Source of the DNA: Azospirillaceae bacterium
Lineage (GTDB): Bacteria; Pseudomonadota; Alphaproteobacteria; Azospirillales; Azospirillaceae
Assembly (NCBI GenBank): GCA_031291675.1
Contig: JARLIO010000045.1
Span: 1 to 64,000, forward strand
DNA: 64,000 bases
Reading direction: 5' to 3'
The notes under the pieces were generated by a model. That model saw only the letters and a program-made list of their open reading frames with translations, had not been told where the DNA came from and did not search any database. Each line of letters starts with the position of its first letter. The stretch's first letter is position 1. Shown in pieces: positions 4,602 to 51,439 of the stretch. Made by a program: the position numbers and the translations under genes.

Positions 4602-5462
4602 TCAGGGGCGCGCGCTCGCGAGACTTCGCTGCAACTCGGTGTGGTAGCGCGCGATGGCGGTCATCACCGCCTCGGCGATGCCGCGGGCCCGGTCATCGAT
4701 CCCGGTCCAAACCGCACCCCGGACCCGGGGATCGACTTCGAGAAGCTTGACGCCCGCCGGCACTTCGGTGTCATCGCGGACAACACCCCGCAACGTGCCG
4801 TCAAACGGCGCGCCAACGGCGACACCGCCCAGATGACCCACGACGAAATCCTTGAAGATCCGGGAACCGATCTCGATCGCGGTGTGCCAGCGCCCGGACA
4901 CCGTCGCATAAACCAGGCGCTCGGCGCCACGATTGGCCAGAGGCGGGGCAACGCCGTCGGCTTCATCGGTGGTGCCGGTCTGAATGATCCGGATCGCCTT
5001 GGTCGGCCGGGTCTCGATCGCGACGTCGCAATTCTCCCCGGCCGAAAACCCGGGGCCGAGACCAATGGTAAATCGGGCAAGGCGCCGCAGGTCCGGCGTC
5101 GTCCGGTATTTCTGCATCCGGGCATCGACCAGAATATCGAGACTACCGAGCACGATCAGGTCGAGCATCCCCAGCCTGGTGATGATGACCTCACGCTGTT
5201 GTGCGAGCATCGCCAGGATCTCGAGACCAGTGTCACCCCGTTTCGCGGTGACCCCGGCAACGACGACCGGATCGTCGAACAGCGCGTCATGGAACGCCAT
5301 CTTTCGCCGGATTACCGGCGGCGACGGGTCGTGCGACAGAACAACGCCGTAGCCTCCCTTGTGGAGGTGAACCGCGACCGCCGAGGCAATCTCGTTGGTG
5401 CCGAGGATCACGGCAAAAGGGCGGGAAGAGCGGTGTCGCTGAGAGCCTTGCATCATGTTCAT
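4602..5462 (-). CDS. YqeB/EF2563-family molybdenum-hydroxylase accessory-like protein
   Basis: A 286-residue protein resembling the EF2563/YqeB family, known from selenium-dependent molybdenum hydroxylase clusters, where its function is unsettled. The N terminus is Rossmann-like (FAVILGTNEIASAVAVHL), and the middle and end (GLGPGFSAGENCDVAIETRP, TGIDDRARGIAEAVMTAI) match the family pattern. The ATG at 5462 follows AGAGGACC. It is the last of three minus-strand genes divergent from nifH, which suggests, but does not show, a role in molybdenum or sulfur handling for nitrogenase. No molybdenum hydroxylase gene is present in this window. Confidence 0.65.
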   Translation of the reverse strand: MNMMQGSQRHRSSRPFAVILGTNEIASAVAVHLHKGGYGVVLSHDPSPPVIRRKMAFHDALFDDPVVVAGVTAKRGDTGLEILAMLAQQREVIITRLGMLDLIVLGSLDILVDARMQKYRTTPDLRRLARFTIGLGPGFSAGENCDVAIETRPTKAIRIIQTGTTDEADGVAPPLANRGAERLVYATVSGRWHTAIEIGSRIFKDFVVGHLGGVAVGAPFDGTLRGVVRDDTEVPAGVKLLEVDPRVRGAVWTGIDDRARGIAEAVMTAIARYHTELQRSLASARP

Positions 5463-5509
5463 CGCGGTCCTCTGTGTCCGTCGCGTTTTGTCAGCAAAAT
5501 CCGTGCCGA

Positions 5510-6286
5510 TCATGCGGCGCGAGTCATACGACGCAGCAGAGCCAGGCAATCGAGGGTCGACGCCATGTCCAGGGCGGTAAAACCATCCAACGTCTCGGAG
5601 GTACGATCGGCGCCGGCCAGAAGCAGGCGTTCGACGACCACCGCCTTGCCCGCCGAGGCGGCATACATCAGCGGCGTTGCGCCATTGTCATTGCGATTGT
5701 CAACGTCGATCCCGGCCCCGATCAACGCGTCGATGACATCAAGATGATCCCCCACGCACGCCAGCCACAGCGCATTGTTGCCATCGTGGTTCCGCAGGTC
5801 GAGCACGGCGCCAACCGCAAACAGCCGGCGCACAATATCGAGTTCACCCCGTTGGCTCGCCCGCATCAACGGCGTTGTCCCGTTTTCGATCGCACCATTG
5901 ACATCGCCGCCGTGAAAGCCCTGAGCGGCGAGCCAACGCCGCAGCGGTTCGTCTATCACGGCGTCACCGGCTTGCGGCGGCCCTTTGCGCCAGGCCTCGT
6001 AGCCACCGTCCAGGCTGTACACCCGGGAGAAGCCAAAATCAGCGAACACCGAGGCGTATTCCTGGCTGGCGTAACCGTGATAGCAATAGATCAGGATCGG
6101 CGTGGTCCGTGGCGTGTCATCGACCACCGTCGACAGGTTGGCCATCGAGACATTCCAGGCGCCGGCGATGTGGGCGTCGGCGAAGGACCCGGCATCGCGC
6201 AGATCGAGGACCAGGACGTCGTCCCGCTCGAGGAGACGCCGAGCCTCGGTGGCATCGATCCGACGGAAGGGTGAACGCGGGGTCAT
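5510..6286 (-). CDS. Rhodanese domain fused to ankyrin repeats
   Basis: Residues about 8-100 form a rhodanese domain (LDLRDAGSFADAHIAGAWN, then YCYHGYAS with the persulfide-carrying Cys). Residues about 125-255 carry three or four ankyrin repeats (GTTPLMRASQRGELDIVRRL, GNNALWLACVGDHLDVIDAL, GATPLMYAASAGKAVVVERL). The ATG at 6286 follows GAGGAGC. It probably transfers sulfane sulfur while docked to a partner through the repeats. It lies between the receiver-like gene and the YqeB-like gene in a unit divergent from nifH, which suggests sulfur delivery linked to nitrogenase. Confidence 0.85.
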   Translation of the reverse strand: MTPRSPFRRIDATEARRLLERDDVLVLDLRDAGSFADAHIAGAWNVSMANLSTVVDDTPRTTPILIYCYHGYASQEYASVFADFGFSRVYSLDGGYEAWRKGPPQAGDAVIDEPLRRWLAAQGFHGGDVNGAIENGTTPLMRASQRGELDIVRRLFAVGAVLDLRNHDGNNALWLACVGDHLDVIDALIGAGIDVDNRNDNGATPLMYAASAGKAVVVERLLLAGADRTSETLDGFTALDMASTLDCLALLRRMTRAA

Positions 6287-6419
6287 CGTGGTTGCTCCTC
6301 GAAAGGGGTGTCTTGCCGGTCCGGATTGGCGGGTCAATCGATGATGCGGTGATGTCATCACGCCGGGATCGGTCGTCGCGGTCGTGGTCCCGGCCGTGGT
6401 CCGGGTCATCGACGCCCGG

Positions 6420-6854
6420 CTATTTGAAACGACCCAGGGTGACGATCGGGGCCGCGCCGCCGCGGCCGAGGATCGTGTCGACCTTCTTGCGAACCCCCTC
6501 GATGGTCAGCGGCTTGACCAGCGCGCCATGCGCACCGGCCTTCATGCCGTCGATCGCCGTCGCCTCCTCGGTCTTGTCGCAAACGATCAGAATTCGCACC
6601 TCGGGGAATTTCGCGGTGACTTCACCGATCAGACCGGGGCCGCGTTGCTTCAGGAACGAGACCCCCAACAGCAGGAGGTGCGGTTTGAGCCAGTCGGCGC
6701 CCTTCGCATAAGCCTCCTCCGGGGTCGCCAGTTCATGGGTCTCAATCTCGTCCTGCAACATGAACTGCAACGCGGCCCGCGTGATCTCGTCATGATCCAC
6801 CACGAAGACGCGGCGCTGATCGACCGCTTTCGACGTTTCAACACCGATCTGCAT
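6420..6854 (-). CDS. Atypical receiver-domain protein without phospho-acceptor Asp
   Basis: A 144-residue single-domain CheY-like fold. The acidic pocket (VFVVDHDE) and conserved lysine (LVKPL) are present, but the phospho-acceptor position, normally LLLD, reads LLLLGVSF, so the Asp is Gly. Phosphorylation as in ordinary response regulators is unlikely; a phosphorylation-independent protein-binding role is more plausible. It is the first gene of the minus-strand unit that shares its control region with nifH, with a sigma54-like promoter about 60 bases upstream. Confidence 0.8.
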   Translation of the reverse strand: MQIGVETSKAVDQRRVFVVDHDEITRAALQFMLQDEIETHELATPEEAYAKGADWLKPHLLLLGVSFLKQRGPGLIGEVTAKFPEVRILIVCDKTEEATAIDGMKAGAHGALVKPLTIEGVRKKVDTILGRGGAAPIVTLGRFK

Positions 6855-6912
6855 CTCGCCCCTCCGCTCCTGCTGCTGCCGACGCGCCGCGCCGTTTCGG
6901 TTTCAGTGTCCT

Positions 6913-6928
6913 AGCAAATTTTGTTCCG
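6913..6928 (-). promoter_or_regulatory. Candidate sigma54 promoter of the receiver/rhodanese/YqeB unit
   Basis: Read on the minus strand the site is CGGAAC-N5-TTGCT. The essential GG and GC dinucleotides are present with correct spacing; two positions of the -24 hexamer deviate from TGGCAC. It lies about 60 bases upstream of the receiver-like gene and about 70 bases from the nearer NifA site. Confidence 0.5.
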
Positions 6929-6995
6929 ATTGGCGGACGGCCCGCGCCGGAGGGCGCCGCAACCCGCGCCACGTGACAAAGACGGCGATCGGGAC

Positions 6996-7011
6996 TGTTT
7001 CATTTCCTACA
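6996..7011 (+). promoter_or_regulatory. NifA upstream activator site 1 of nifH
   Basis: Perfect TGT-N10-ACA, 132 bases upstream of the nifH -24 element. Because the motif is symmetric, it could also serve the divergent minus-strand promoter. Confidence 0.75.
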
Positions 7012-7055
7012 GCTCCCGGTCCGCCGGTATTGTTTCCTACAGCGGGCGCGCCCCC

Positions 7056-7071
7056 TGTAGGGTTCGGAACA
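7056..7071 (+). promoter_or_regulatory. NifA upstream activator site 2 of nifH
   Basis: A second perfect TGT-N10-ACA exactly 60 bases after the first. It is 72 bases upstream of the -24 element. Confidence 0.75.
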
Positions 7072-7142: not shown

Positions 7143-7158
7143 TGGCACGCCGGTTGCT
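7143..7158 (+). promoter_or_regulatory. Sigma54 promoter of nifH
   Basis: TGGCAC-GCCGG-TTGCT is a full match to the -24/-12 consensus. The same 16 bases occur upstream of sufB at 45486. It implies a leader of about 150 bases before nifH. Confidence 0.92.
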
Positions 7159-7286: not shown

Positions 7287-8201
<915 letters not shown>

Positions 8202-16751: not shown

Positions 16752-17582
16752 TCAGCGCGACGGCGGCAAGATGGCGCCCAACACCGTATCGAGAGCCTCG
16801 AGATCCACGGACAGCGGACGTGACGGCCGAAACCGCTCGTGCAGCAGCGCTATTTGACCCCGGTAGAACCGCGCAAGACCATTGAGCGAATGGAGGATCG
16901 CCTCGGCGTCGTGACGCGGATAGGAAGCCGCCAACGCCACAAGAGCCTCCTCGCTGCCACGCTGCTCAAACTTGGCGAAAACAAGTGTTTCCGGCGTTCT
17001 TCCAAATAGCCAGTCATCAGCCTGTATGACGTATTGACGCAACTCATCCAACAGCATTTGAGCATATGCCAACTCCCCGCGTAAAGCGCGTCGGTATGTC
17101 TCATGCGTGGCCGCCAGCCCCTTGCTGATCGAAAAGTCGATGTCGTCTTCAGACACATCAAACCGTTGACCCGTCGATCGCTCGACTACAGATGCCACAA
17201 CGCCTGACGGATCATGCAGAATCTGGGTGGGAAGCGTGTACCATGGCGACGGCGTGAGATGGGCCTGGTCGAGGTAGAAGATGTCGATCTTACCGAAGGG
17301 CCTGAAGTGGGATACGCAGTGTTGCGCGCCTGGCACCCATTCGTTAAAGAGAAAACCCGGCCATGACTTGGTGATTTCGCGCCGCGCCGCGACGAACCGA
17401 GCATGGTCCTCCGGCCGCACCACGACACGCAGGTCAATATCCGACCAAACGTCGTCGCTGCGCGCCGCCAGTGACCCGCCCAGGAACACCGCCACAACGG
17501 CCGGATCAAGAGCGAACCTGCCCTCAGCGGTAGCGAGGAGCGTCCTGCGCGCTTCGACGAGCGTTTCTTCGTTCAAAGTCAT
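16752..17582 (-). CDS. Nucleotidyltransferase-domain protein
   Basis: A 276-residue protein with the Pol-beta nucleotidyltransferase signature FLGGSLAARSDDVWSDIDLR (GGS then DxD) near residues 30-50, and a helical C-terminal region. Aminoglycoside or other small-molecule adenylyltransferases share this layout, but the substrate cannot be told. The start at 17582 follows AGGAGG-N8. It converges on nifQ and is unrelated to nitrogen fixation, so with the next gene it is probably an insertion. Confidence 0.75.
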   Translation of the reverse strand: MTLNEETLVEARRTLLATAEGRFALDPAVVAVFLGGSLAARSDDVWSDIDLRVVVRPEDHARFVAARREITKSWPGFLFNEWVPGAQHCVSHFRPFGKIDIFYLDQAHLTPSPWYTLPTQILHDPSGVVASVVERSTGQRFDVSEDDIDFSISKGLAATHETYRRALRGELAYAQMLLDELRQYVIQADDWLFGRTPETLVFAKFEQRGSEEALVALAASYPRHDAEAILHSLNGLARFYRGQIALLHERFRPSRPLSVDLEALDTVLGAILPPSR

Positions 17583-17790
17583 CCCCTTATCCTCCTTCTC
17601 CGGCATCAAATTTGAAATGCCGCGGGAAGATCGCTCCGGGTCCGCGGCATTCGGCAATCCCAGGGGGATCAGACATTCCGCGCACAGGATTTCCCCAAGA
17701 TGGACGGCGCCAGCCTAGTGGGCAGCTAACGCGAACTGAGCCAAGGGATAAGCCGCCTTCGGCGCCGGTGAGCAGCGATCGTCGACAACA

Positions 17791-20700
17791 TCACCGCAGT
17801 TCTGGCTGATATACCCTTCGCCTAATTTCCAGTTCCTCGTTCCTTGGATGCTTAATATGCCATGCCATATGAAATAGCGACAGGTTTGGGTTAAAATAAG
17901 GATCGCCTTCTTCCAACAATTTCTTCCATTTTCTTAGAAAGTACGCGCTATCCTGCGGATGAGGATCTTCGGTACTTTTCCCTCTCGTGAGGGATTCATG
18001 GTGAACCAAACGCGCATATGGACAAAACAATACCCTATAGCCCTTTTCGACCACCTTTAGACATAAATCCACGTCACCAAATCCAACTGCAAGCCCCTCA
18101 TCAAAACCATCGATCGCCTCGAACGCCTCCTTGCTGATCAGAAGACAAGCCGCGGTCACGGCGGAGACTTCATGATTGACAATCAGACTGCCCCAATACC
18201 CGGGCTCCAATCCCTGTTTCGGCATCTCCATAAATTTGCCGAAATGCTCCGCCAGACCCATGGCACCAACGCATACACCGGCATGCTGGATAGTTCTTCG
18301 ATCAGGATAAAACAACTTAGCTCCGACCACTCCAATAGACGGCCGCTGCCCAGGTTCAACCATTCTCTCAAGCCAACCATCTTCAAATGCCTCAATGTCG
18401 TTATTGCAAAAAAGATAGTGAGAGTATTCTTTATTTAATTTTGCGACAGCAAAATTATTTATGGCGGAAAAATTGAACGGGCCTTCATACCGCAATATTT
18501 GAATTCTTTCCTTTAACGTATCAAAGTATTCAACGGACGAGACATCGTCAGATGCATGATCAATAAGCACAATATCAAACCTGACATTGTGCACCGTGGC
18601 TTCGATGCTCTGAATACATTGCCGAACCAAATCGCCATGGTTCTTGGTCGGAATGATGATCGCAACCTTAACGTTGTCTTGGAGTGGGTAACGCGTATCA
18701 AAAAAATTGAAACTTGGCCCATCAAGAACAGTCCCGTTTTCGCCGCATCGCTCCAGGTGTCGTGTCAGGACACTCCTCGAAATGTCCATGACCTGTTGCA
18801 TCTTCTGGTGTCCGGCAGAGTTCTTGTCGGTCCTCCAGCAATATAAAATCTCTGGAATATGTACAATACTTCTTGCCTTCTCGCTAGCACGCAAAATAAG
18901 GTCATAATCCTGCGATATCGACAGACTTTCATCGAAACCGCCGATGTCCGTCAAAAATTGGCGTCTAAAACCGAGCATGTGCACAATGTAGGGATGAGAT
19001 CGAAGCAACTCCGGAGAAAATGCAGGCCTGAAAGCATGCCCGATAACCGTCGTACCGTCTCCGGAAAGCAAGACCTCATCTGAATACAACATATCAGGAT
19101 TGTCAGTTTCGACGCACTCTGCCACCCTGAAAATCGCCTGCTCCTTGAGAAGATCGTCATGATCAAGCAGCACGACGAATGTGCCGGTAGCAAGGCGCAA
19201 GGCCATGTTTGACGCATGTGACACCCCCATATTCTTTTCTGCGAAATCCACTTTGATTCGTACATCCCGGGAACTGTACTCCTGCAAAACTCTTTTTGTT
19301 TGCTCCTGTGAAGATCCATCATCAACGATACAAAGTTCCCATACTGGATAGATCTGATCCAGTACAGATTGAATTGTTTTCCGAAGAACGTCCTCCGGTG
19401 TGTTATACGTTGGCATCAAAATAGAAATACGGGGATGATGAGCCATTCGCGTCAGTTTTTCGGCGAAGGCGTTTAGGCTGGTGGCTGTCAGCCTGTTGTT
19501 GAGAGTCGTCCAGTGTTGCTGATCTGAATGCATCTTATCCCATTGCAGATCCTGCACAATCCGCCGCTTCGTAGCCGTCCAGCCATGCCGATAGAAGTAG
19601 GATAGGCCGCGATAGATTCCGGTCTTATTATATCGTAGAGCGTGCCATAAGATCTGTATTTTTCCGATTTCTCGAATCTCGACCCCGGTTAGGCTGAAGC
19701 TGCCGGGTCCATCCATCGGATCGAGGCGCAACGCCTTGATATTGGCCGGCAGCGGAGTCACGATGTCGACTGAACCAGCGGTTATCGACGGTAGCGCGAG
19801 GACATGCTGCGGGGTGAACCCACTTCCAGTGTCGAAATAAAGAACAGGTGTGAGCGGCGATGATGCCTCGGGAACATTGAAGGAGATCCGGCTCCACCCC
19901 CCTGCGAGCGGAACGCTGCCAAGCCAGGATAGCAGAAAAGCAGGATCCTCTCCAGTGCTCACGAAGCGTTTGCCATCCTCTTCGAGGTCGTGTAACGGAC
20001 GTAATGCCAATGGGTACAGGCGATTGCGATGGAGCCCGCGCAAAAAGTGGACGAAAGTACCGAATTTTCGAACCGGCGCAGAAAATTTCCAGGAAGTTGA
20101 ATTATAAAGCGCAAGCAGGCGTTGATCACGATGCTCGACCACCGCTTGCCATTCGGTCAGGTCATGGCGCAAGCTTGCGATCACATCTTGGAGAACCAGG
20201 ATATCCTGGTCACGCTGCGTAACCGTCGCGGTGACCGCGGTAAGAGCGCTGCTCAGATCCTGATTACGGGTCGTCAGATGCTGAATATCCTGGTCACGCC
20301 GCGTAACTGTCGCGGCGGCGGCGGTAAGAGCGCTGCTCAAATCCTGATTATGGGCCGTCAGATGCTGAATATCCTGGTCACGCTGAGCGATCACGCCACG
20401 GAGGGCGGCAATATCCTGCGCATGCTCACTCGCAAGGCTACTCATCTGGCTTTCTTGTTTTTTGATCTCCTGCCGCTTGGCGTGAAGAAGGTCTTCGAGG
20501 TCCGCGGTCCGTTGGCCAAGCGCGGCGACATTTTCTGCCGTTGCCGGCGGATCCGAAATTCCGACACCATCGCTCCTGCCGATGGCTGCGCGGGTGGCTT
20601 CCAACCAGGCGAAACCGTAGCGACGGTCGGGTTCCAGGTGACAGCCTTCACCCCATTCGTTCCACGCATTGATAAAGACGAGGCGTTCGTCGCCGTCCTG

Positions 20701-21639
20701 TTCGCGACGGGTCCGCTCGATCGCCGTCTTCAACCAGCGCCGATAAGCTTCGGGGCTGGCGTTGATGGCCAGATGGGCGCGGCGACCATTTCGCGCGGTA
20801 TTATCCCAGGACGGCATGACGCCATGAAAACGCCGATAGGATGGCATCGCGCGCGTGGCAAAATCCTGAGCGACCGTTTCATAGTCATAGATCAAACCGG
20901 TGAAGTCGGGATCAAGATTTGTCGCCAGAAACGAGCTATCGGCGACATTTGCCGCGTTCGGGGGGAACTCACAGGCGCTGTCGAAGCCGATTTCGCCGGG
21001 ATCCCCCACGGAATTCGACGTACCAATCGATTCGACCCGGCACAAATAGAGGCTGGGAAGGCCGGCGGCCGCAGCCTCGGCACGCCAAATTGCCGCGGTC
21101 GCCGCCGGATCCGGCAGGAGCTGCGTGCGATAGACCAATACCAATGGCGCTCCTTTGACCCGGATATAACGCGGATCCTGGAGCGCCGGGATCAGGCCAC
21201 GGATCATGTCCCGATCGTTTTCTGGCGAATAATTCTGCTTGATCAGGATCTCGTGGTCTTGTCCATCCCAGCGCCGGGTCCAGTTCTCGTTGGCCCAACA
21301 GATACAGAACGGGAAATCGGGCTGCCCGGACGCCAGAACATCGTTGAAAGGTCGTTCCAGCAAGCGCTGGCCGCTAAAATTGTAGTGATAATAACAAAAC
21401 CCATGGATGCCATGTTGGCGGGCCAGCCGCGCCTGGGCTTCTCTTGCCTCAGGAAGACGAAGATCATAGAAACCGAGCGATCCGGGAAGCTGCGGCTGAT
21501 GATGCCCTTTAAATAGCGGCTTCGCCTCGGCGACCTTGGTCCATTCGGTGAAACCTTGTCCCCACCAGATGTCATTTTCCGGGATGGGATGGAACTGAGG
21601 CAGATAAAAGGCGATTAACCGGACATCGTCAGCCGTCAT
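17791..21639 (-). CDS. Large multidomain glycosyltransferase (WbsX-like + coiled coil + two GT2 domains)
   Basis: A 1282-residue protein. Residues 1 to about 350 resemble the WbsX/GH99-like domain (FYLPQFHPIPENDIWWGQGF, CWANENWTRRWDG). About 375-510 is a coiled coil holding a 28-residue repeat. About 560-660 looks like a beta-sandwich. The first GT2 domain is at about 735-960 (ISILMPTYNTPEDV, CIVDDGSS, LLDHDD) and the second at about 990-1240 (VAIIIPTKNHGDLV). It probably builds a surface polysaccharide. The 3' half is visibly richer in A/T than the nif genes around it, suggesting acquisition by transfer. Confidence 0.9.
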   Translation of the reverse strand: MTADDVRLIAFYLPQFHPIPENDIWWGQGFTEWTKVAEAKPLFKGHHQPQLPGSLGFYDLRLPEAREAQARLARQHGIHGFCYYHYNFSGQRLLERPFNDVLASGQPDFPFCICWANENWTRRWDGQDHEILIKQNYSPENDRDMIRGLIPALQDPRYIRVKGAPLVLVYRTQLLPDPAATAAIWRAEAAAAGLPSLYLCRVESIGTSNSVGDPGEIGFDSACEFPPNAANVADSSFLATNLDPDFTGLIYDYETVAQDFATRAMPSYRRFHGVMPSWDNTARNGRRAHLAINASPEAYRRWLKTAIERTRREQDGDERLVFINAWNEWGEGCHLEPDRRYGFAWLEATRAAIGRSDGVGISDPPATAENVAALGQRTADLEDLLHAKRQEIKKQESQMSSLASEHAQDIAALRGVIAQRDQDIQHLTAHNQDLSSALTAAAATVTRRDQDIQHLTTRNQDLSSALTAVTATVTQRDQDILVLQDVIASLRHDLTEWQAVVEHRDQRLLALYNSTSWKFSAPVRKFGTFVHFLRGLHRNRLYPLALRPLHDLEEDGKRFVSTGEDPAFLLSWLGSVPLAGGWSRISFNVPEASSPLTPVLYFDTGSGFTPQHVLALPSITAGSVDIVTPLPANIKALRLDPMDGPGSFSLTGVEIREIGKIQILWHALRYNKTGIYRGLSYFYRHGWTATKRRIVQDLQWDKMHSDQQHWTTLNNRLTATSLNAFAEKLTRMAHHPRISILMPTYNTPEDVLRKTIQSVLDQIYPVWELCIVDDGSSQEQTKRVLQEYSSRDVRIKVDFAEKNMGVSHASNMALRLATGTFVVLLDHDDLLKEQAIFRVAECVETDNPDMLYSDEVLLSGDGTTVIGHAFRPAFSPELLRSHPYIVHMLGFRRQFLTDIGGFDESLSISQDYDLILRASEKARSIVHIPEILYCWRTDKNSAGHQKMQQVMDISRSVLTRHLERCGENGTVLDGPSFNFFDTRYPLQDNVKVAIIIPTKNHGDLVRQCIQSIEATVHNVRFDIVLIDHASDDVSSVEYFDTLKERIQILRYEGPFNFSAINNFAVAKLNKEYSHYLFCNNDIEAFEDGWLERMVEPGQRPSIGVVGAKLFYPDRRTIQHAGVCVGAMGLAEHFGKFMEMPKQGLEPGYWGSLIVNHEVSAVTAACLLISKEAFEAIDGFDEGLAVGFGDVDLCLKVVEKGYRVLFCPYARLVHHESLTRGKSTEDPHPQDSAYFLRKWKKLLEEGDPYFNPNLSLFHMAWHIKHPRNEELEIRRRVYQPELR
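20201..20400 (-). repeat. 84-bp in-frame tandem repeat in the glycosyltransferase
   Basis: The block beginning ATATCCTGGTCACGC recurs at 20201, 20285 and 20369, a period of 84 bases. It encodes a 28-residue unit of the type DQDIQHLTxxNQDLSSALTA, four heptads of coiled coil. About 2.4 copies are present and copies differ by only a few bases. Confidence 0.85.
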
Positions 21640-22232
21640 AGGGCGCCCCGAACGCTAAAATCTCAGCTGTTGAAATGATCCACAGCATGCCGAACATTCA
21701 ACCGGCCACTTCTATAGCCGCCGCCGCCGCCGATTTCCACCGTTTTGATCGATCGTCAACCCGCGCATCGGGCTAAGGCGCCGGCTCGGGTTCCCCGCCG
21801 CCGGACCTCGCGAAGGAATTTCGCCACAGATCGCCCACAGGACCGTGAGTAAACCACTCGACCTATACCAGCCCGCGATGGAACCAGCCCATCCGGGCGC
21901 TTGGCGGGCGGGCACGGCGGCCCGCCCCACCGACAATCGCTACCGGCGATGTGTTAAGATCATTGCGGACTGGTATGATACCGCACGGGGCTGAATCTCG
22001 GCGAGATCCGGTGCTTTCTTGATACCGGTCGCGAGATCGAACGTTGCCTGCAGGTTCAGCCGGAATTCCTTGAACCCGGCGATCATGACCCGCCCGTGTC
22101 ATCCCGAGAAGCGTATCACGGCGAGATCCGAGAATGCCGGATGGTTCGGCCAAAGGATCATCAGCCGCTATAACAAGCCTCTGGCATACGGCCAGAATGG
22201 GCCCGTGAGCGGCATTCGGCGATCGCCTGACG
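21640..22232. other. Intergenic stretch, no gene seen
   Basis: About 590 bases between two minus-strand genes. It holds a short GCC run near 21718. No frame in it has a ribosome site with recognisable product, and no sigma54 site was found. Confidence 0.5.
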
Positions 22233-22547
22233 CTATTCGATCCCCTGCTCCCGGGCCTTCCGCATCGCCGCGATGCGGAAGCGCTCGTTGATCGCCGCCG
22301 GATCGGCCAGGATCTGCGTTTCCGCCTCCCTCAGCGCCGCCACAACCCGTTCGGCCTCTGCCCGGGCCAGGGGCACGCGGCCGGCCATATGGGTCGCGTC
22401 CGGCGCCACCTGCAGGATCGCCCGCTGGTTGGGATGCCCCGCGACCTCGATCAGTTCGAACGCCTCGAGCTTGCCGTCCAGGCAGATTGCCAGCCCGATG
22501 ACTTCGAGCCTGCGGCCGTCCTGGGTCGTCTTGATCAATGTCGCCAT
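22233..22547 (-). CDS. Conserved-looking small protein of unknown function
   Basis: A 104-residue acidic protein starting at an ATG behind GAGGGACACGTTG. An N-terminal beta-rich half (ATLIKTTQDGRRLEVIGLAI) is followed by a helical half with many Ala, Arg and Glu. I do not recognise the family. Codon use matches the nif genes. It lies 127 bases downstream of another unknown gene on the same strand and may share its transcript. Confidence 0.6.
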   Translation of the reverse strand: MATLIKTTQDGRRLEVIGLAICLDGKLEAFELIEVAGHPNQRAILQVAPDATHMAGRVPLARAEAERVVAALREAETQILADPAAINERFRIAAMRKAREQGIE

Positions 22548-45201: not shown

Positions 45202-45217
45202 TGTCGGCATTGCGACA
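45202..45217 (-). promoter_or_regulatory. NifA site for the dienelactone hydrolase promoter
   Basis: Perfect TGT-N10-ACA about 107 bases upstream of the minus-strand -24 element and 269 bases from the sufB -24 element. Confidence 0.6.
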
Positions 45218-45368
45218 CAGACCGCCCGGGTTGCGATCGGCGACGGCGTTGCCATCGTGCGCCCCATGGTCGCGAACCGGCGCGGTCCCGCGCCATTTCC
45301 ACGGCTCCGACGCCGCGGCTGCGAGAACGACCCGCAGCCTCCAGACCGTGGCCGGTCATGAATCCGAC

Positions 45369-45384
45369 TGTCGGGTTTGCAACA
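45369..45384 (+). promoter_or_regulatory. NifA upstream activator site of the suf operon
   Basis: Perfect TGT-N10-ACA, 101 bases before the sufB -24 element. Confidence 0.7.
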
Positions 45385-45485
45385 TCGGCCAGGGACAAAA
45401 AGCCGGCGTCACAATCCAGCGTCAAAACCCGATTATCCCGTTGGTTGAAGGACATAAGGGATGTTTGTCCGACATCCCAGGCCGC

Positions 45486-45501
45486 TGGCACGCCGGTTGC
45501 T
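45486..45501 (+). promoter_or_regulatory. Sigma54 promoter of sufBCDSU
   Basis: TGGCAC-GCCGG-TTGCT, the same 16 bases as the nifH promoter, 38 bases before the sufB start. Confidence 0.92.
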
Positions 45502-45539
45502 TTCTCCCTGTTTCGAAATGACACGGTCTTTTCTTGAGA

Positions 45540-47075
<1,536 letters not shown>

Positions 47076-47139
47076 AAATACCCCGCTGCAAGGTGCCAAA
47101 CCGCGCCCACCGTCCCTCCCGCGATCGGCAAAGGTCCCC

Positions 47140-47901
47140 ATGAGCAACCTCCTCGAAATCCATGACTTGCGTGCCCGGACCCTCGGTGGTCGTGACATCC
47201 TCAAGGGAATCAATCTGACCATCGCGCCGGGTGAGGTCCATGCCATCATGGGCCCCAACGGTGCCGGCAAGAGCACCCTTTCCAGCGTGCTCGCCGGCAA
47301 GCCCGGCTATGAAGTCACGGGCGGCAGCGTGCTGTATCAGGGCCGCGACCTGCTGGCGCTTCCCGCCGATGCCCGGGCGCGCGAGGGGATCTTCCTCGCG
47401 TTTCAGTACCCGGTCGAAATCCCGGGTGTCAACAACACCTACTTTCTGCGGGCTGCGCTGAATGCCGGGCGCCGTCACCGCGGCGAACCGGAACTTGACG
47501 CCGCGCAATTCCTTAAGGCGGTCAAGGAAAAGCTCAAGCTGCTCGACATCAGCAGCGACCTGCTGCAGCGCCCGGTCAATGTCGGCTTCTCGGGCGGCGA
47601 GAAGAAACGCAACGAGATTTTCCAGATGGCGATGCTGGAGCCGCGGCTGGCCGTGCTCGACGAAACCGACAGCGGGCTCGATATCGACGCGCTGCGCGTC
47701 GTGTCGAACGGCGTCAATCGGCTGCGCGACCCGCAGCGCGCGATCGTCATGATCACACACTACCAGCGCCTGCTTGACTACATCGTCCCGGACCATGTTC
47801 ACGTCCTGAGCGACGGCCGGATCGTCGCCTCCGGCGACAAGACCCTGGCCGCGACGCTGGAGCAGACCGGTTACGCCCATCTCGACAGCGCCGCGGCATA
47901 G
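47140..47901 (+). CDS. sufC: Fe-S assembly ATPase SufC
   Basis: ABC ATPase of SufBC2D. Walker A is GPNGAGKST, the signature is FSGGEKKRNEI, Walker B is LAVLDETDSGLDID, and the H-loop His is in MITHYQR. The 253 residues are normal. It starts 64 bases after sufB. Confidence 0.97.
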   Translation: MSNLLEIHDLRARTLGGRDILKGINLTIAPGEVHAIMGPNGAGKSTLSSVLAGKPGYEVTGGSVLYQGRDLLALPADARAREGIFLAFQYPVEIPGVNNTYFLRAALNAGRRHRGEPELDAAQFLKAVKEKLKLLDISSDLLQRPVNVGFSGGEKKRNEIFQMAMLEPRLAVLDETDSGLDIDALRVVSNGVNRLRDPQRAIVMITHYQRLLDYIVPDHVHVLSDGRIVASGDKTLAATLEQTGYAHLDSAAA

Positions 47902-47915
47902 GGGGGCGGGATATC

Positions 47916-49256
47916 ATGACGATCAGCGAGCAGGTCGCACCCTTTGTCCGCGCATTTCGCACGGCCCCGGGCATCTCCGACGAACCGGAATGGCTGTGCG
48001 CCCACCGCGACGCCTCGATCCGCCACTTCGCGGCGACCGGTTTTCCGACACGCAGCGCGGAATCCTGGCGCTTCACCGACCTGCGACCGCTGACGGCGTC
48101 GCCGATTCTGCCGGCACCGGATGCGGTTCCCAATGCCTCGGAACGGGCACTTGCCGACCCGCCGCCTTCCGACCCGCCGCCTTCCGAATTGTCCGTTCCG
48201 ACCCATCGGATCATCCTGGTCAACGGCCGCTTCATCCCCAGGCTTTCCCGGATCGGGGCCCTGCCCCCCGGCGTCTGGCTTGGTTCCACGGCCGACACCG
48301 TCAAGGCGCGCCCCGGCCTGATTGCGGCAGCCTTCGACGCCAGCGAGATTGTCGGCTCGCAGCCCTTCGCCGCGCTCAACGCGGCGTTCTTCGCCGATGG
48401 CTTTGTCCTGGCCCTGGAACCCGGTGCGGTGCTTGAGACGCCGATCGAGGTGATCCATCTCGGCCGGACCGACACCCCGGTGGCGTTCCATCTGCGCAAT
48501 GCGATCATCGCCGGATCCGGCAGCCGGGCCACGGTGATCGAAAGCACCGAGGGTTCCGGCCCGGGCTGGACCAACGCGGTCACCGCCATCACCGTCGACG
48601 CTGACGCATCACTGCGCCATATCAGGATCCAGAACGACGGGAGCGAAGCGATCCATACGGCGCTGACGCGGGCAACCCTGGCCCGTGGCGCGCGCTATGA
48701 AAACTTCGCCCTGACCCTGGGCGCGCGCCTGTCGCGCCAGGACATTCAGGTCGCGCTCAGCGGCGAGGGCGCATCCGTGGCTCTGAATGGCGCCTATCTG
48801 CTGAGGGGGGAGCAGGAGGCAACCTTCGCCCCCCATGTCGATCATCAGGCACCCGGATGCCGGACCGACGAAGTGCTCAAAGGCGTGATGCAGGATCATG
48901 CCCACGGCGTGTTTCTCGGAACCATTGCCGTGCGTCCCGGCGCCGATCAGACCGACGCGCGACAGTTGAACCGCAATCTGCTGCTGAGTCCCTGGGCACA
49001 TGTCGACACCAAGCCCGAATTGGAGATCCTGGCGGACGATGTCAAATGCAGCCATGGTGCCACGGTCGGCAGCCTTGATGAAGCGGCGTTATTCTATCTC
49101 CAGGCGCGCGGCCTTGATGAGACCACGGCGCGGCACATGCTGATCGAAGCTTTCGCCGCCGACGTCATCGACACCGCCGCGTTGGGCGATATCCTCAGCG
49201 CCCCGTTGCGCCGGCATCTGCGGGACTGGCTCGGCCAGGTTGGCGGTGCCGCATGA
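47916..49256 (+). CDS. sufD: Fe-S assembly protein SufD
   Basis: Partner of SufB in the scaffold. Family features are RHFAATGFPTRSAESWRFTD at the N terminus and LSPWAHVDTKPELEILADDV plus KCSHGATVGSLDE at the C terminus. The 446 residues fit. A small direct repeat (PPSDPPPSE) lies near residues 87-95. It overlaps sufS by four bases. Confidence 0.94.
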   Translation: MTISEQVAPFVRAFRTAPGISDEPEWLCAHRDASIRHFAATGFPTRSAESWRFTDLRPLTASPILPAPDAVPNASERALADPPPSDPPPSELSVPTHRIILVNGRFIPRLSRIGALPPGVWLGSTADTVKARPGLIAAAFDASEIVGSQPFAALNAAFFADGFVLALEPGAVLETPIEVIHLGRTDTPVAFHLRNAIIAGSGSRATVIESTEGSGPGWTNAVTAITVDADASLRHIRIQNDGSEAIHTALTRATLARGARYENFALTLGARLSRQDIQVALSGEGASVALNGAYLLRGEQEATFAPHVDHQAPGCRTDEVLKGVMQDHAHGVFLGTIAVRPGADQTDARQLNRNLLLSPWAHVDTKPELEILADDVKCSHGATVGSLDEAALFYLQARGLDETTARHMLIEAFAADVIDTAALGDILSAPLRRHLRDWLGQVGGAA

Positions 49257-50515
49257 CGATGCTGGCACCGCTCCGGCCCGTGGCCGGCAACAGCTTCGAT
49301 GTCGCGTGGATCCGGCGCGAATTTCCGGTGTTTGAGCGAAATCCCGGCTTGGTTTTCCTCGACACCGCGGCGAGCGCCCAGAAACCGCGCAGCGTCATCG
49401 ACGGTATCGCCGAATTCTATCGCTCGGATTACGCCAACGTGCATCGCGGCGTCTATGGCCTGAGTGCGCGATCGACGGCACGCTTCGAAGGCGCCCGCGA
49501 AACGGTGCGCCGCTTCCTCAACGCCGCCGATGTCAGCGAGATCGTGTTCGTCCGCGGCGCAACCGAGGGCCTTAATCTGGTCGCCCAGTCCTGGGGCGCC
49601 ACGTTCCTGAAGCCGGGCGACCAGGTGCTGCTCTCGGCGTTGGAGCACCATTCCAATATCGTGCCCTGGCAGCAATTGCGCGATCGCCTCGGCCTGGAAC
49701 TGGTGATCGTGCCGCTCGACAGCAGCGGCGGGCTCGACGTTGCGGCGTTTGAACGGCTGCTCACCCCGCGGACCCGCCTGGTCGCAATCACCCATATCGC
49801 CAATGTCACCGGGCATGTGGTTCCCGCGGCCGCGCTGGTGCGGCTGGCGCACGCACGGGGCGCCAAGATCCTGCTCGACGGTTGTCAGGCGGTGCCGCGC
49901 CTTCCCGTCGACGTCCAGGCTCTCGATTGTGACTTCTACGTCCTGTCCGGCCACAAATGCTATGGGCCCACAGGCATCGGCGTCCTTTACGCAAAACGTG
50001 CGATCCTGGATGCCATGCCACCCTGGCAAAGCGGCGGCGACATGATCACCACCGTCACCTTCGAGCGGACAACCTACCAGGAGCCGCCACAACGGTTCGA
50101 GGCGGGCACGCCCGACATTTCCGGTGCCATTGGTTTGGCCCTGGCGCTCGACTTCATGGACCAGGTGGGCCGGACGACGATCCGCGATCACGAGCAGGCA
50201 TTGACCCGTTATGCCCGCGACCGCCTTGCCACGATGCCCGGCGTCAGTGTGGTCGGTGCCGGTTCGGAATGCCTGGGCGTGGTGTCGTTCACCGTCGACG
50301 GCGTGCACCCCCATGATCTCGCCACGATCTTCGACCAGAGCAATGTGGCGATCCGGGCCGGCCATCATTGTGCGCAACCTCTCATGGATACATTGGGATT
50401 GGCAGCGACGGCACGCGCTTCATTCGGCATCTATAGCGATGAAAGCGATGTCGACGCCCTGGTAACCGCGATCCGGGCGGCCCAGCGTCTGTTCGATCGG
50501 CCGGTTCAGGGCTAA
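49253..50515 (+). CDS. sufS: Cysteine desulfurase SufS
   Basis: Group II cysteine desulfurase. The PLP lysine is in VLSGHKCYGPTGIG and the catalytic Cys in RAGHHCAQPLMD. The N-terminal VFLDTAASAQKPRSVID is typical. The 420 residues fit. It supplies sulfur to SufU/SufBCD and is distinct from NifS at 25537. Confidence 0.96.
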   Translation: MTMLAPLRPVAGNSFDVAWIRREFPVFERNPGLVFLDTAASAQKPRSVIDGIAEFYRSDYANVHRGVYGLSARSTARFEGARETVRRFLNAADVSEIVFVRGATEGLNLVAQSWGATFLKPGDQVLLSALEHHSNIVPWQQLRDRLGLELVIVPLDSSGGLDVAAFERLLTPRTRLVAITHIANVTGHVVPAAALVRLAHARGAKILLDGCQAVPRLPVDVQALDCDFYVLSGHKCYGPTGIGVLYAKRAILDAMPPWQSGGDMITTVTFERTTYQEPPQRFEAGTPDISGAIGLALALDFMDQVGRTTIRDHEQALTRYARDRLATMPGVSVVGAGSECLGVVSFTVDGVHPHDLATIFDQSNVAIRAGHHCAQPLMDTLGLAATARASFGIYSDESDVDALVTAIRAAQRLFDRPVQG

Positions 50516-50541
50516 GGGTTTTTGCCTCAGGAGCGTTTGCG

Positions 50542-51006
50542 ATGGATCTACGCGAGCTGTATCAGGACATCATTCTCGACCACGGCCGCCACCCGCGAAA
50601 TTTCGGCGCACTGAGTGACGCCAGTCATTTTGCGCACGGCCACAATCCACTCTGCGGCGACAAGGTTACGATCTTCGTCAAGCTTGACGGGGACCGCATT
50701 GTCGAGGCCCGTTTCGAAGGTCACGGCTGCGCGATTTCCACCGCATCGGCCTCGCTGATGACCGAAGTCGTCAAGAACAAAACGCTGGCCGAGGCCGACG
50801 CGTTGTTCCAGAACTTCCACACCAAGGTCACCGGTGGCGAGCAGATCGCACTGCCGGCGGCCCTGGAGGACGATGGCGACCGGCTGGAACCGCTTGCCGG
50901 TGTCAAGTCCTACCCCGCGCGGGTCAAGTGCGCCACCCTGGCCTGGCATACTTTCGAAGCCGCGATGCATGCCGGCAGCATCGCCGCCGCTGTCAAGACG
51001 GAATAG
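50542..51006 (+). CDS. sufU: SUF sulfur-acceptor protein SufU
   Basis: A 154-residue IscU-like protein with the SufU pattern LYQDIILDHGRHPRNFG, NPLCGDKVTI, GHGCAISTASASLMTE and the final Cys in RVKCATLAWHTF. It accepts sulfur from SufS. Its presence may offset the missing N-terminal scaffold domain of NifU. Confidence 0.93.
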   Translation: MDLRELYQDIILDHGRHPRNFGALSDASHFAHGHNPLCGDKVTIFVKLDGDRIVEARFEGHGCAISTASASLMTEVVKNKTLAEADALFQNFHTKVTGGEQIALPAALEDDGDRLEPLAGVKSYPARVKCATLAWHTFEAAMHAGSIAAAVKTE

Positions 51007-51010
51007 ACCG

Positions 51011-51439
51011 ATGCACAGCGCCGATGATGGCCGGGGGTGCGACGACTTCGGCGCCGACACCACCCTGGTGGAACCGGGGGCCGTGAGCCGCGCCGGCTCG
51101 ACCGGTTCCGACGACCTTTCCGCGATTGCGGACAAACGCGTCCTGGAACAGGACGTCATTGAGGCAATGAAGACAGTCCACGATCCCGAGATTCCTGTCA
51201 ATCTCGTGGATCTCGGGCTGATCTATGATCTGACGATCAGCCCGGAGGGCCGGGTCGACATTGCGATGACCCTGACAACGCCGGCGTGCCCGGTCGCCGG
51301 CTCCCTGCCCGAACAGGTGCGCCACATCGTTTCGATGGTGCCTGGGGTCAGCGTCGTCCTCGTGACGCTGGTTTGGGATCCACCATGGACGCGCGATCGT
51401 ATGAGCGAAGTGGCGCAACTCGAGTTGGGATTTCTGTGA
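51011..51439 (+). CDS. SufT-like DUF59/MIP18 protein
   Basis: A 142-residue protein whose C-terminal 100 residues form a DUF59 domain (MKTVHDPEIPVNLVDLGLIY, TLTTPACPVAGSLPEQVR, VWDPPW). About 40 N-terminal residues are low-complexity. DUF59 proteins act in Fe-S maturation. It starts four bases after the sufU stop and ends the suf run. Confidence 0.88.
   Translation: MHSADDGRGCDDFGADTTLVEPGAVSRAGSTGSDDLSAIADKRVLEQDVIEAMKTVHDPEIPVNLVDLGLIYDLTISPEGRVDIAMTLTTPACPVAGSLPEQVRHIVSMVPGVSVVLVTLVWDPPWTRDRMSEVAQLELGFL

Follow-up and report, generated by a model that had tools for sequence, protein, structure and literature searches.

An aspartate-less receiver gene opposite nifH leads a candidate NifA/sigma54-controlled accessory operon of molybdenum nitrogenase

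Several described systems come close to a locus that we analysed in an Azospirillaceae bacterium, in which genes for a receiver-like protein, a rhodanese-ankyrin protein and a YqeB-like protein lie opposite nifH (the window, that is, the whole stretch analysed, comprises positions 1 to 64,000 of contig JARLIO010000045.1, assembly GCA_031291675.1, forward strand). The nifB-(fdxN)-nifO-nifQ-rhodanese-glutaredoxin group of Azotobacter and Pseudomonas, PST1306-PST1302 in P. stutzeri A1501, is likewise NifA/RpoN-linked and likewise encodes a NifO-like protein and a GlpE-type rhodanese. It also includes a glutaredoxin gene, and the set is strongly induced under N2 fixation, the NifO-like, NifQ, GlpE rhodanese and glutaredoxin genes being co-induced 17- to 54-fold (PMC2820453). 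This group sits with nifB and nifQ, whereas the window unit lies opposite nifH, and the five-gene set as listed lacks genes for an aspartate-less receiver, for ankyrin and for a YqeB-like protein (PMC2820453). The draTGB genes of Azospirillum brasilense resemble the window unit in occupying the region upstream of nifH and in including a NifO homologue, DraB, as the third gene, but they encode ADP-ribosylation control of NifH and include no receiver, rhodanese or YqeB gene (PMC5249018, PMC3169532). NifO has also been linked to molybdenum distribution (PMC5249018). In the window genome, draT is found on contig C52, away from nifH.

The individual proteins have described relatives as well. Single-domain rhodaneses of the GlpE and RhdN types share with the window rhodanese a C-Y-H-G active loop with an intact Cys, and aspartate-less receivers (ALRs, a class of pseudo-receivers; PMC12632262) share with the window receiver a receiver fold without a phosphorylatable Asp. 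The third protein is homologous over its full length to the TIGR03309 region of YqeB/EF2563, a family of selenium-dependent molybdenum hydroxylase maturation, including the C-terminal segment, and has a G-x-x-C-x-x-x-I-E-T motif in common with E. coli YqeB.

Receiver gene and promoters opposite nifH

An initial annotation of the window had proposed three genes heading away from nifH, together with two perfect TGT-N10-ACA sites and a facing sigma54-like site. All three genes are on the minus strand, oriented away from nifH, and the promoter elements are borne out by exact matches and shuffles (Table 1). The 462-bp spacer between the receiver gene and nifH contains two perfect NifA-type upstream activator sequences (UAS), compared with 0.03 expected from dinucleotide shuffles. 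If transcription starts ~12 bp beyond the GC of the -12 element, as estimated, the receiver start site has these UAS at about -102 and -162 and the nifH start site has them at about -104 and -164, distances so similar that both promoters could use both UAS. A further sigma54 site, absent from the initial annotation and stronger than the receiver-facing one, occupies the 47-bp spacer between the rhodanese-ankyrin and YqeB-like genes. An exact search of up to 700 bp upstream of this site found no perfect UAS, and a single one-mismatch site (5566-5581, against 1.8 expected by chance) was rejected as its UAS. To judge from this arrangement, the window YqeB-like gene may be transcribed both from its own promoter and from that of the receiver gene. 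Across the whole window, 16 exact TGT-N10-ACA sites occur where 5.5 are expected; these mark several regions of NifA-type control on the nif island.

Table 1. Genes and promoter elements at the receiver-nifH locus
Feature	Position	Strand	Description
YqeB-like gene	4602-5462	-	286 aa; alternative start ATG 5453; TIGR03309 1.3e-46
Second sigma54 site	5493-5508	-	CGGCACGGATTTTGCT; rhodanese-ankyrin/YqeB-like spacer, 33 bp upstream of YqeB-like start; matched in 0/100 shuffles
Rhodanese-ankyrin gene	5510-6286	-	258 aa, one polypeptide; N-terminal rhodanese (GlpE-like), C-terminal ankyrin repeats
Receiver gene	6420-6854	-	144 aa; single-domain aspartate-less (pseudo-)receiver; Pfam Response_reg PF00072 7.6e-11
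Sigma54 -24/-12 site facing receiver gene	6913-6928	-	CGGAACAAAATTTGCT; matched in 0/100 shuffles of the region
NifA-type UAS, TGT-N10-ACA	6996-7011		Exact match
Second NifA-type UAS, TGT-N10-ACA	7056-7071		Exact match
nifH sigma54 promoter	7143-7158	+	TGGCACGCCGGTTGCT; perfect, 0 mismatches
nifH	7317-8201	+	First gene of divergent nifHDKENX operon; TIGR01287 above cut-off

Scanning a receiver alignment against 84,980 species genomes returned 119 loci; the 80 that were kept over-represent Bradyrhizobium and Methylocystis. The survey was seeded with the N-terminal peptides MQIGVET[AS] and KAVDQRRV, and N-terminal conservation is thus partly selected for; its gene maps were made with a codon-based caller of our own and BLAST labels. 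The loci come from Bradyrhizobium, Xanthobacter, Azorhizobium, Aquabacter, Parvibaculum, Methylocystis, Methylocapsa, Rhodoblastus, Roseibium, Acidiphilium, Acidocella, Nitrospirillum, Niveispirillum, Sphingomonas azotifigens, Novosphingobium and others. In every locus whose contig reaches far enough (73/73), nifH and the receiver gene diverge; the remaining 7 contigs break off no more than 450 bp from the start of the receiver gene. Among the 70 intergenic regions that were excised exactly (the window and 69 loci), all 70 contain a receiver-facing sigma54 site, each scoring better than 97 or more of 100 dinucleotide shuffles. One or more perfect TGT-N10-ACA sites are present in 68, with a mean of 1.76 compared with 0.05 expected by chance. 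At the sequence level, it is therefore near certain that the receiver unit is under NifA/sigma54 control. The same promoter elements recur outside the Alphaproteobacteria, on a plasmid of the gammaproteobacterium Methylococcus sp. EFPC2, where a receiver-NifO-rhodanese-ankyrin set diverges from nifH.

The receiver is nif-specific, yet not universal among diazotrophs. A class sample of 385 genomes yielded it in 2, both among the 12 that are nifH-positive, and a family-weighted sample of 59 genomes yielded it in 7, all within the 21 that are nifH-positive. In the window genome, the receiver and YqeB-like genes are each single-copy, and neither is found at a second, vnf-type nifH cluster on contig C47, where genes resembling vnfDGK, vnfEN and a vnfA-type regulator were recognized by eye; the organism probably has a vanadium nitrogenase in addition. 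A third nitrogenase-like cluster, on contig C95 and likewise recognized by eye, encodes a NifH-like protein, NifDK-like partners and a radical SAM protein, is possibly of the methylthio-alkane reductase type, and also has no receiver. Absence from these two clusters fits a role with molybdenum nitrogenase and is no proof of it.

Conserved linkage of this kind might reflect no more than shared transport, the genes riding on a horizontally moved nif island without a joint role. Their distribution is indeed patchy, and in the receiver tree the window copy groups with Parvibaculum (94/88 support), away from the family members Nitrospirillum and Niveispirillum. However, the position is fixed, the promoter architecture is constant, and receiver residues are conserved across Rhizobiales, Sphingomonadales, Rhodospirillales and one gammaproteobacterium, so that we regard ordinary linkage as very unlikely. 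For the nif island itself, the receiver-tree grouping hints at horizontal acquisition, a point that the nifH tree is too weakly supported to settle.

The receiver-like reading of the first protein holds in a more specific form: in the terms of PMC12632262, it is a single-domain aspartate-less receiver. Position 64, which aligns with the phosphoacceptor Asp of solved CheY structures, is Gly in 81/81 sequences, and the EFPC2 receiver likewise has Gly at this position. The acidic pocket is retained (Asp20 in 79/81, Asp22 in 81/81), as is Lys114 (81/81). An AlphaFold model has a confident receiver fold (predicted local distance difference test, pLDDT, 82), and structure searches place it near FixJ, NtrX and CheY-type domains. 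With no phosphoacceptor Asp, no output domain and 144 aa of receiver only, it is not a canonical response regulator; it stands apart from the described ALRs in being single-domain and tied to nifH. In the open-access literature, we found no description of a nif-linked ALR subgroup or of the receiver gene opposite nifH, a negative that is weak given this coverage; the receiver-led operon thus appears undescribed in the open literature, within the known class of nif accessory genes.

Since Asp phosphorylation cannot switch this receiver, a putative constitutive docking or adaptor role fits better than a place in a phosphorelay. Proximity of the fold to FixJ and NtrX, and of the gene to the main NifA targets, could instead point to a transcriptional co-regulator, acting for example in NifA or FixJ/NtrC-type signalling, with the downstream genes as passengers of a strong promoter. 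We consider this improbable. The protein has neither an output domain nor a phosphorylation site, its partners keep their theme from genus to genus, and the YqeB-like gene in many cases has a NifA-type promoter of its own.

Sulfur- and molybdenum-related partners

The initial annotation treated the three genes as a unit next to nif. Divergence of the receiver from nifH and conservation of the NifA/sigma54 sites agree with such a unit; its composition does not, as receiver, rhodanese, ankyrin and YqeB occur together in only 4 of the 72 loci that have at least 5 kb of downstream sequence. The exact trio is a minority arrangement and not the conserved entity, and only the receiver is universal among the loci. 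Counted within 8 kb downstream in these 72 loci, its partners are NifO-like proteins (49), SufT (41), ankyrin (32), rhodanese (21), SagB-like nitroreductase (17), YqeB-like (15), SufE (14), ModD (8) and SufB (8). On the opposite strand, BolA, Grx4 and a 2Fe-2S ferredoxin are neighbours. Both proposed themes are strengthened by this company, the sulfur theme by SufE in place of rhodanese, sufBCDS/U/T, Grx4 and BolA, and the molybdenum theme by ModD and the NifO-like protein, which scored above the TIGR01616 cut-off in both proteins tested. The only NifO-like gene of the window genome (C30:42639-43016, TIGR01616 173.8 bits) lies outside the nif region, with no adjoining nif gene.

In the window rhodanese-ankyrin protein, Pfam recognizes Rhodanese in residues 12-101 (5.7e-18) and Ank_2 in residues 126-198 (1e-20). 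Its rhodanese loop, YCYHGYAS, contains CYHG with the active-site Cys intact, and the Cys loop is matched in 20 homologues. Unlike GlpE and RhdN, it is fused to ankyrin repeats and scores below the GlpE equivalog cut-off (NF001195, 85.6 bits against 102). The identical fusion occurs at loci in Xanthobacter, Azorhizobium, Acidiphilium, Methylocapsa and Bradyrhizobium. A defence-system reading was rejected, PADLOC having returned generic ankyrin-type matches only. Rhodanese and SufE are mutually exclusive, with an overlap of 0/72; at the place of the rhodanese-ankyrin fusion of other loci, the SufE loci have ankyrin and SufE after the receiver. From gene content, the pattern looks like a swap of one sulfur carrier for another.

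Within the nif region of the window itself, positions 45202-51439 hold a sufBCDS-sufU-sufT set (genes 45540-51439) preceded by two TGT-N10-ACA sites, at 45202 and 45369, and by a sigma54 site that is perfect (45486-45501), and the SUF genes there thus also look NifA-controlled.

The partners also bear on the strongest rival explanation, a regulatory or protective one. Here, the unit would tune or protect nitrogenase post-translationally, through redox or oxygen state or the regulation of NifH, without supplying sulfur or molybdenum, and NifH or its regulators would be bound by the receiver as an adaptor. In other family members draT lies near nifH, at ~0.4 kb in several, as do draTG and the NifO homologue of draTGB in A. 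brasilense (PMC3169532, PMC5249018), and Nitrospirillum species carry the receiver operon and no draT. The SagB-like nitroreductase of 17/72 loci and the truncated haemoglobin and Rieske proteins of the EFPC2 operon would suit such a role. Set against this, the window genome holds both the receiver operon and draT (contig C52), so that the two do not replace one another, and the commonest neighbours on both strands are Fe-S, sulfur and molybdenum genes. We judge the explanation possible, on the unlikely side. Replacement of draTG by the receiver operon as a general rule is rejected on the same ground, namely the draT gene that the window genome keeps.

The YqeB-like protein

The third protein is a true homologue of the YqeB/EF2563 family, in line with the YqeB-like label of the initial annotation, though not the canonical Se/Mo-hydroxylase factor: it reaches 159.1 bits against TIGR03309, where the equivalog cut-off is 220 (a Nitrospirillum homologue reaches 160.2), and a TIGR00476 search of the window genome (97.7% complete) did not find selD. 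It further differs from YqeB/EF2563 in having no XdhC/CoxI domain, in being nif-linked and in having a sigma54 site. A selenium role in the window organism is rejected as unlikely, given the sub-threshold score and the selD result; Nitrospirillum relatives do carry selD. Published analysis placed true YqeB members only in selD-positive genomes and the next homologues largely in species without selD (PMC2276186), and it is to this second set that the window protein appears to belong.

Nif-linked homologues are 54-68% identical to the window protein. At the 15 other nif loci, the YqeB-like gene closely follows the receiver or NifO gene in 5 and has its own sigma54 site and a perfect UAS upstream in 10, and so looks NifA-controlled either way. 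An AlphaFold model of the protein from 16 nif-linked sequences was not usable (mean pLDDT 37). In profile comparison, the C-terminus weakly resembles a stretch of the secretion-type membrane-fusion protein LipC (best match, E 0.02).

Service to a Se- or Mo-dependent hydroxylase, as for canonical YqeB, with an incidental nif neighbourhood, is what the homology to TIGR03309 might suggest, and Se-dependent purine use in C. difficile requires yqeB (PMC11448449). The score and the selD result argue against it, as does the gene's linkage to nif at 15 other loci, 10 of them with a NifA-type promoter of its own. Moreover, in gene maps of the window and the nif-linked loci, no selD, yqeC or molybdenum hydroxylase genes adjoin the YqeB-like gene, whereas canonical copies in other alphaproteobacteria have selD- and yqeC-type genes as neighbours, joined in one case by xanthine-dehydrogenase-type genes (by eye). 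We rank this as the least likely of the explanations weighed here.

A plasmid of Methylocella tundrae encodes a YqeB-like protein of the nif type (57% identical), and the surrounding 9 kb contain no nif gene. Within ~6 kb of it lie genes for a truncated haemoglobin and a SagB-like dehydrogenase and an ArsC/NifO-type gene, suggesting that these genes may also travel together without nif.

Proposed role and significance

From the initial interpretation, the divergent NifA/sigma54 unit and the receiver-like protein survive, while the exact trio and the canonical YqeB do not. With moderate confidence, we favour the explanation that NifA and sigma54 control an accessory operon of molybdenum nitrogenase, headed by an aspartate-less receiver dedicated to nif and containing sulfur- and molybdenum-handling partners. 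Its basis is the shared divergent promoter region, its conservation, the loss of the phosphoacceptor in every homologue, the intact rhodanese Cys and the Fe-S, sulfur and molybdenum partners, all read from sequence. That the unit supplies sulfur and molybdenum to nitrogenase is plausible on these grounds.

Several observations weigh on the other side. Most nifH-positive relatives in both genome samples have no receiver, and the loci are phylogenetically non-independent. The rhodanese/SufE switch falls mostly in one clade (Methylocystis and close metagenome-assembled genomes). Rhodanese and YqeB-like genes are each present in only a minority of the 72 loci, and therefore neither is essential for nitrogenase generally. 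Finally, the SagB-like nitroreductase in operons and the truncated haemoglobin in EFPC2 could indicate redox protection.

If the accessory operon acts as we propose, the rhodanese-ankyrin protein would carry persulfide sulfur from NifS or SufS and dock on a partner via its ankyrin repeats. The YqeB-like protein would represent a branch of the Mo-cofactor chalcogen family that works independently of Se, and would help to sulfurate molybdenum, or keep hold of Mo-S species, during assembly of the iron-molybdenum cofactor (FeMo-co) or of Fe-S clusters. The receiver would be the constitutive adaptor that docks both proteins on a nitrogenase assembly partner, and the unit would matter most when molybdenum or sulfur is limiting or during rapid nitrogenase synthesis. 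A bolder form of this proposal, to which we give less credence than to the regulatory rival and which we offer as a speculation, is a dedicated nitrogenase maturation complex, with the receiver as scaffold, the rhodanese-ankyrin protein or ankyrin plus SufE bringing persulfide, and the Se-free YqeB branch sulfurating or holding molybdenum for FeMo-co. Such a complex, if real, would extend the chalcogen-on-Mo chemistry of YqeB/XdhC from molybdenum hydroxylases to nitrogenase.

Elsewhere in the window, positions 16752-22233 have a weak coding signal, with a 1282-aa open frame (17791-21639, minus strand) and an opposite-strand frame with repeated peptide units.

The routes by which sulfur and molybdenum reach nitrogenase are only partly understood, and minimal nif sets are being transferred to new hosts. 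The receiver operon is a concrete gene set that could improve nitrogenase assembly. The nif-linked receiver provides a defined system in which to study the function of pseudo-receivers, and the YqeB-like gene allows one to ask whether its family also has a role outside enzymes that depend on selenium.

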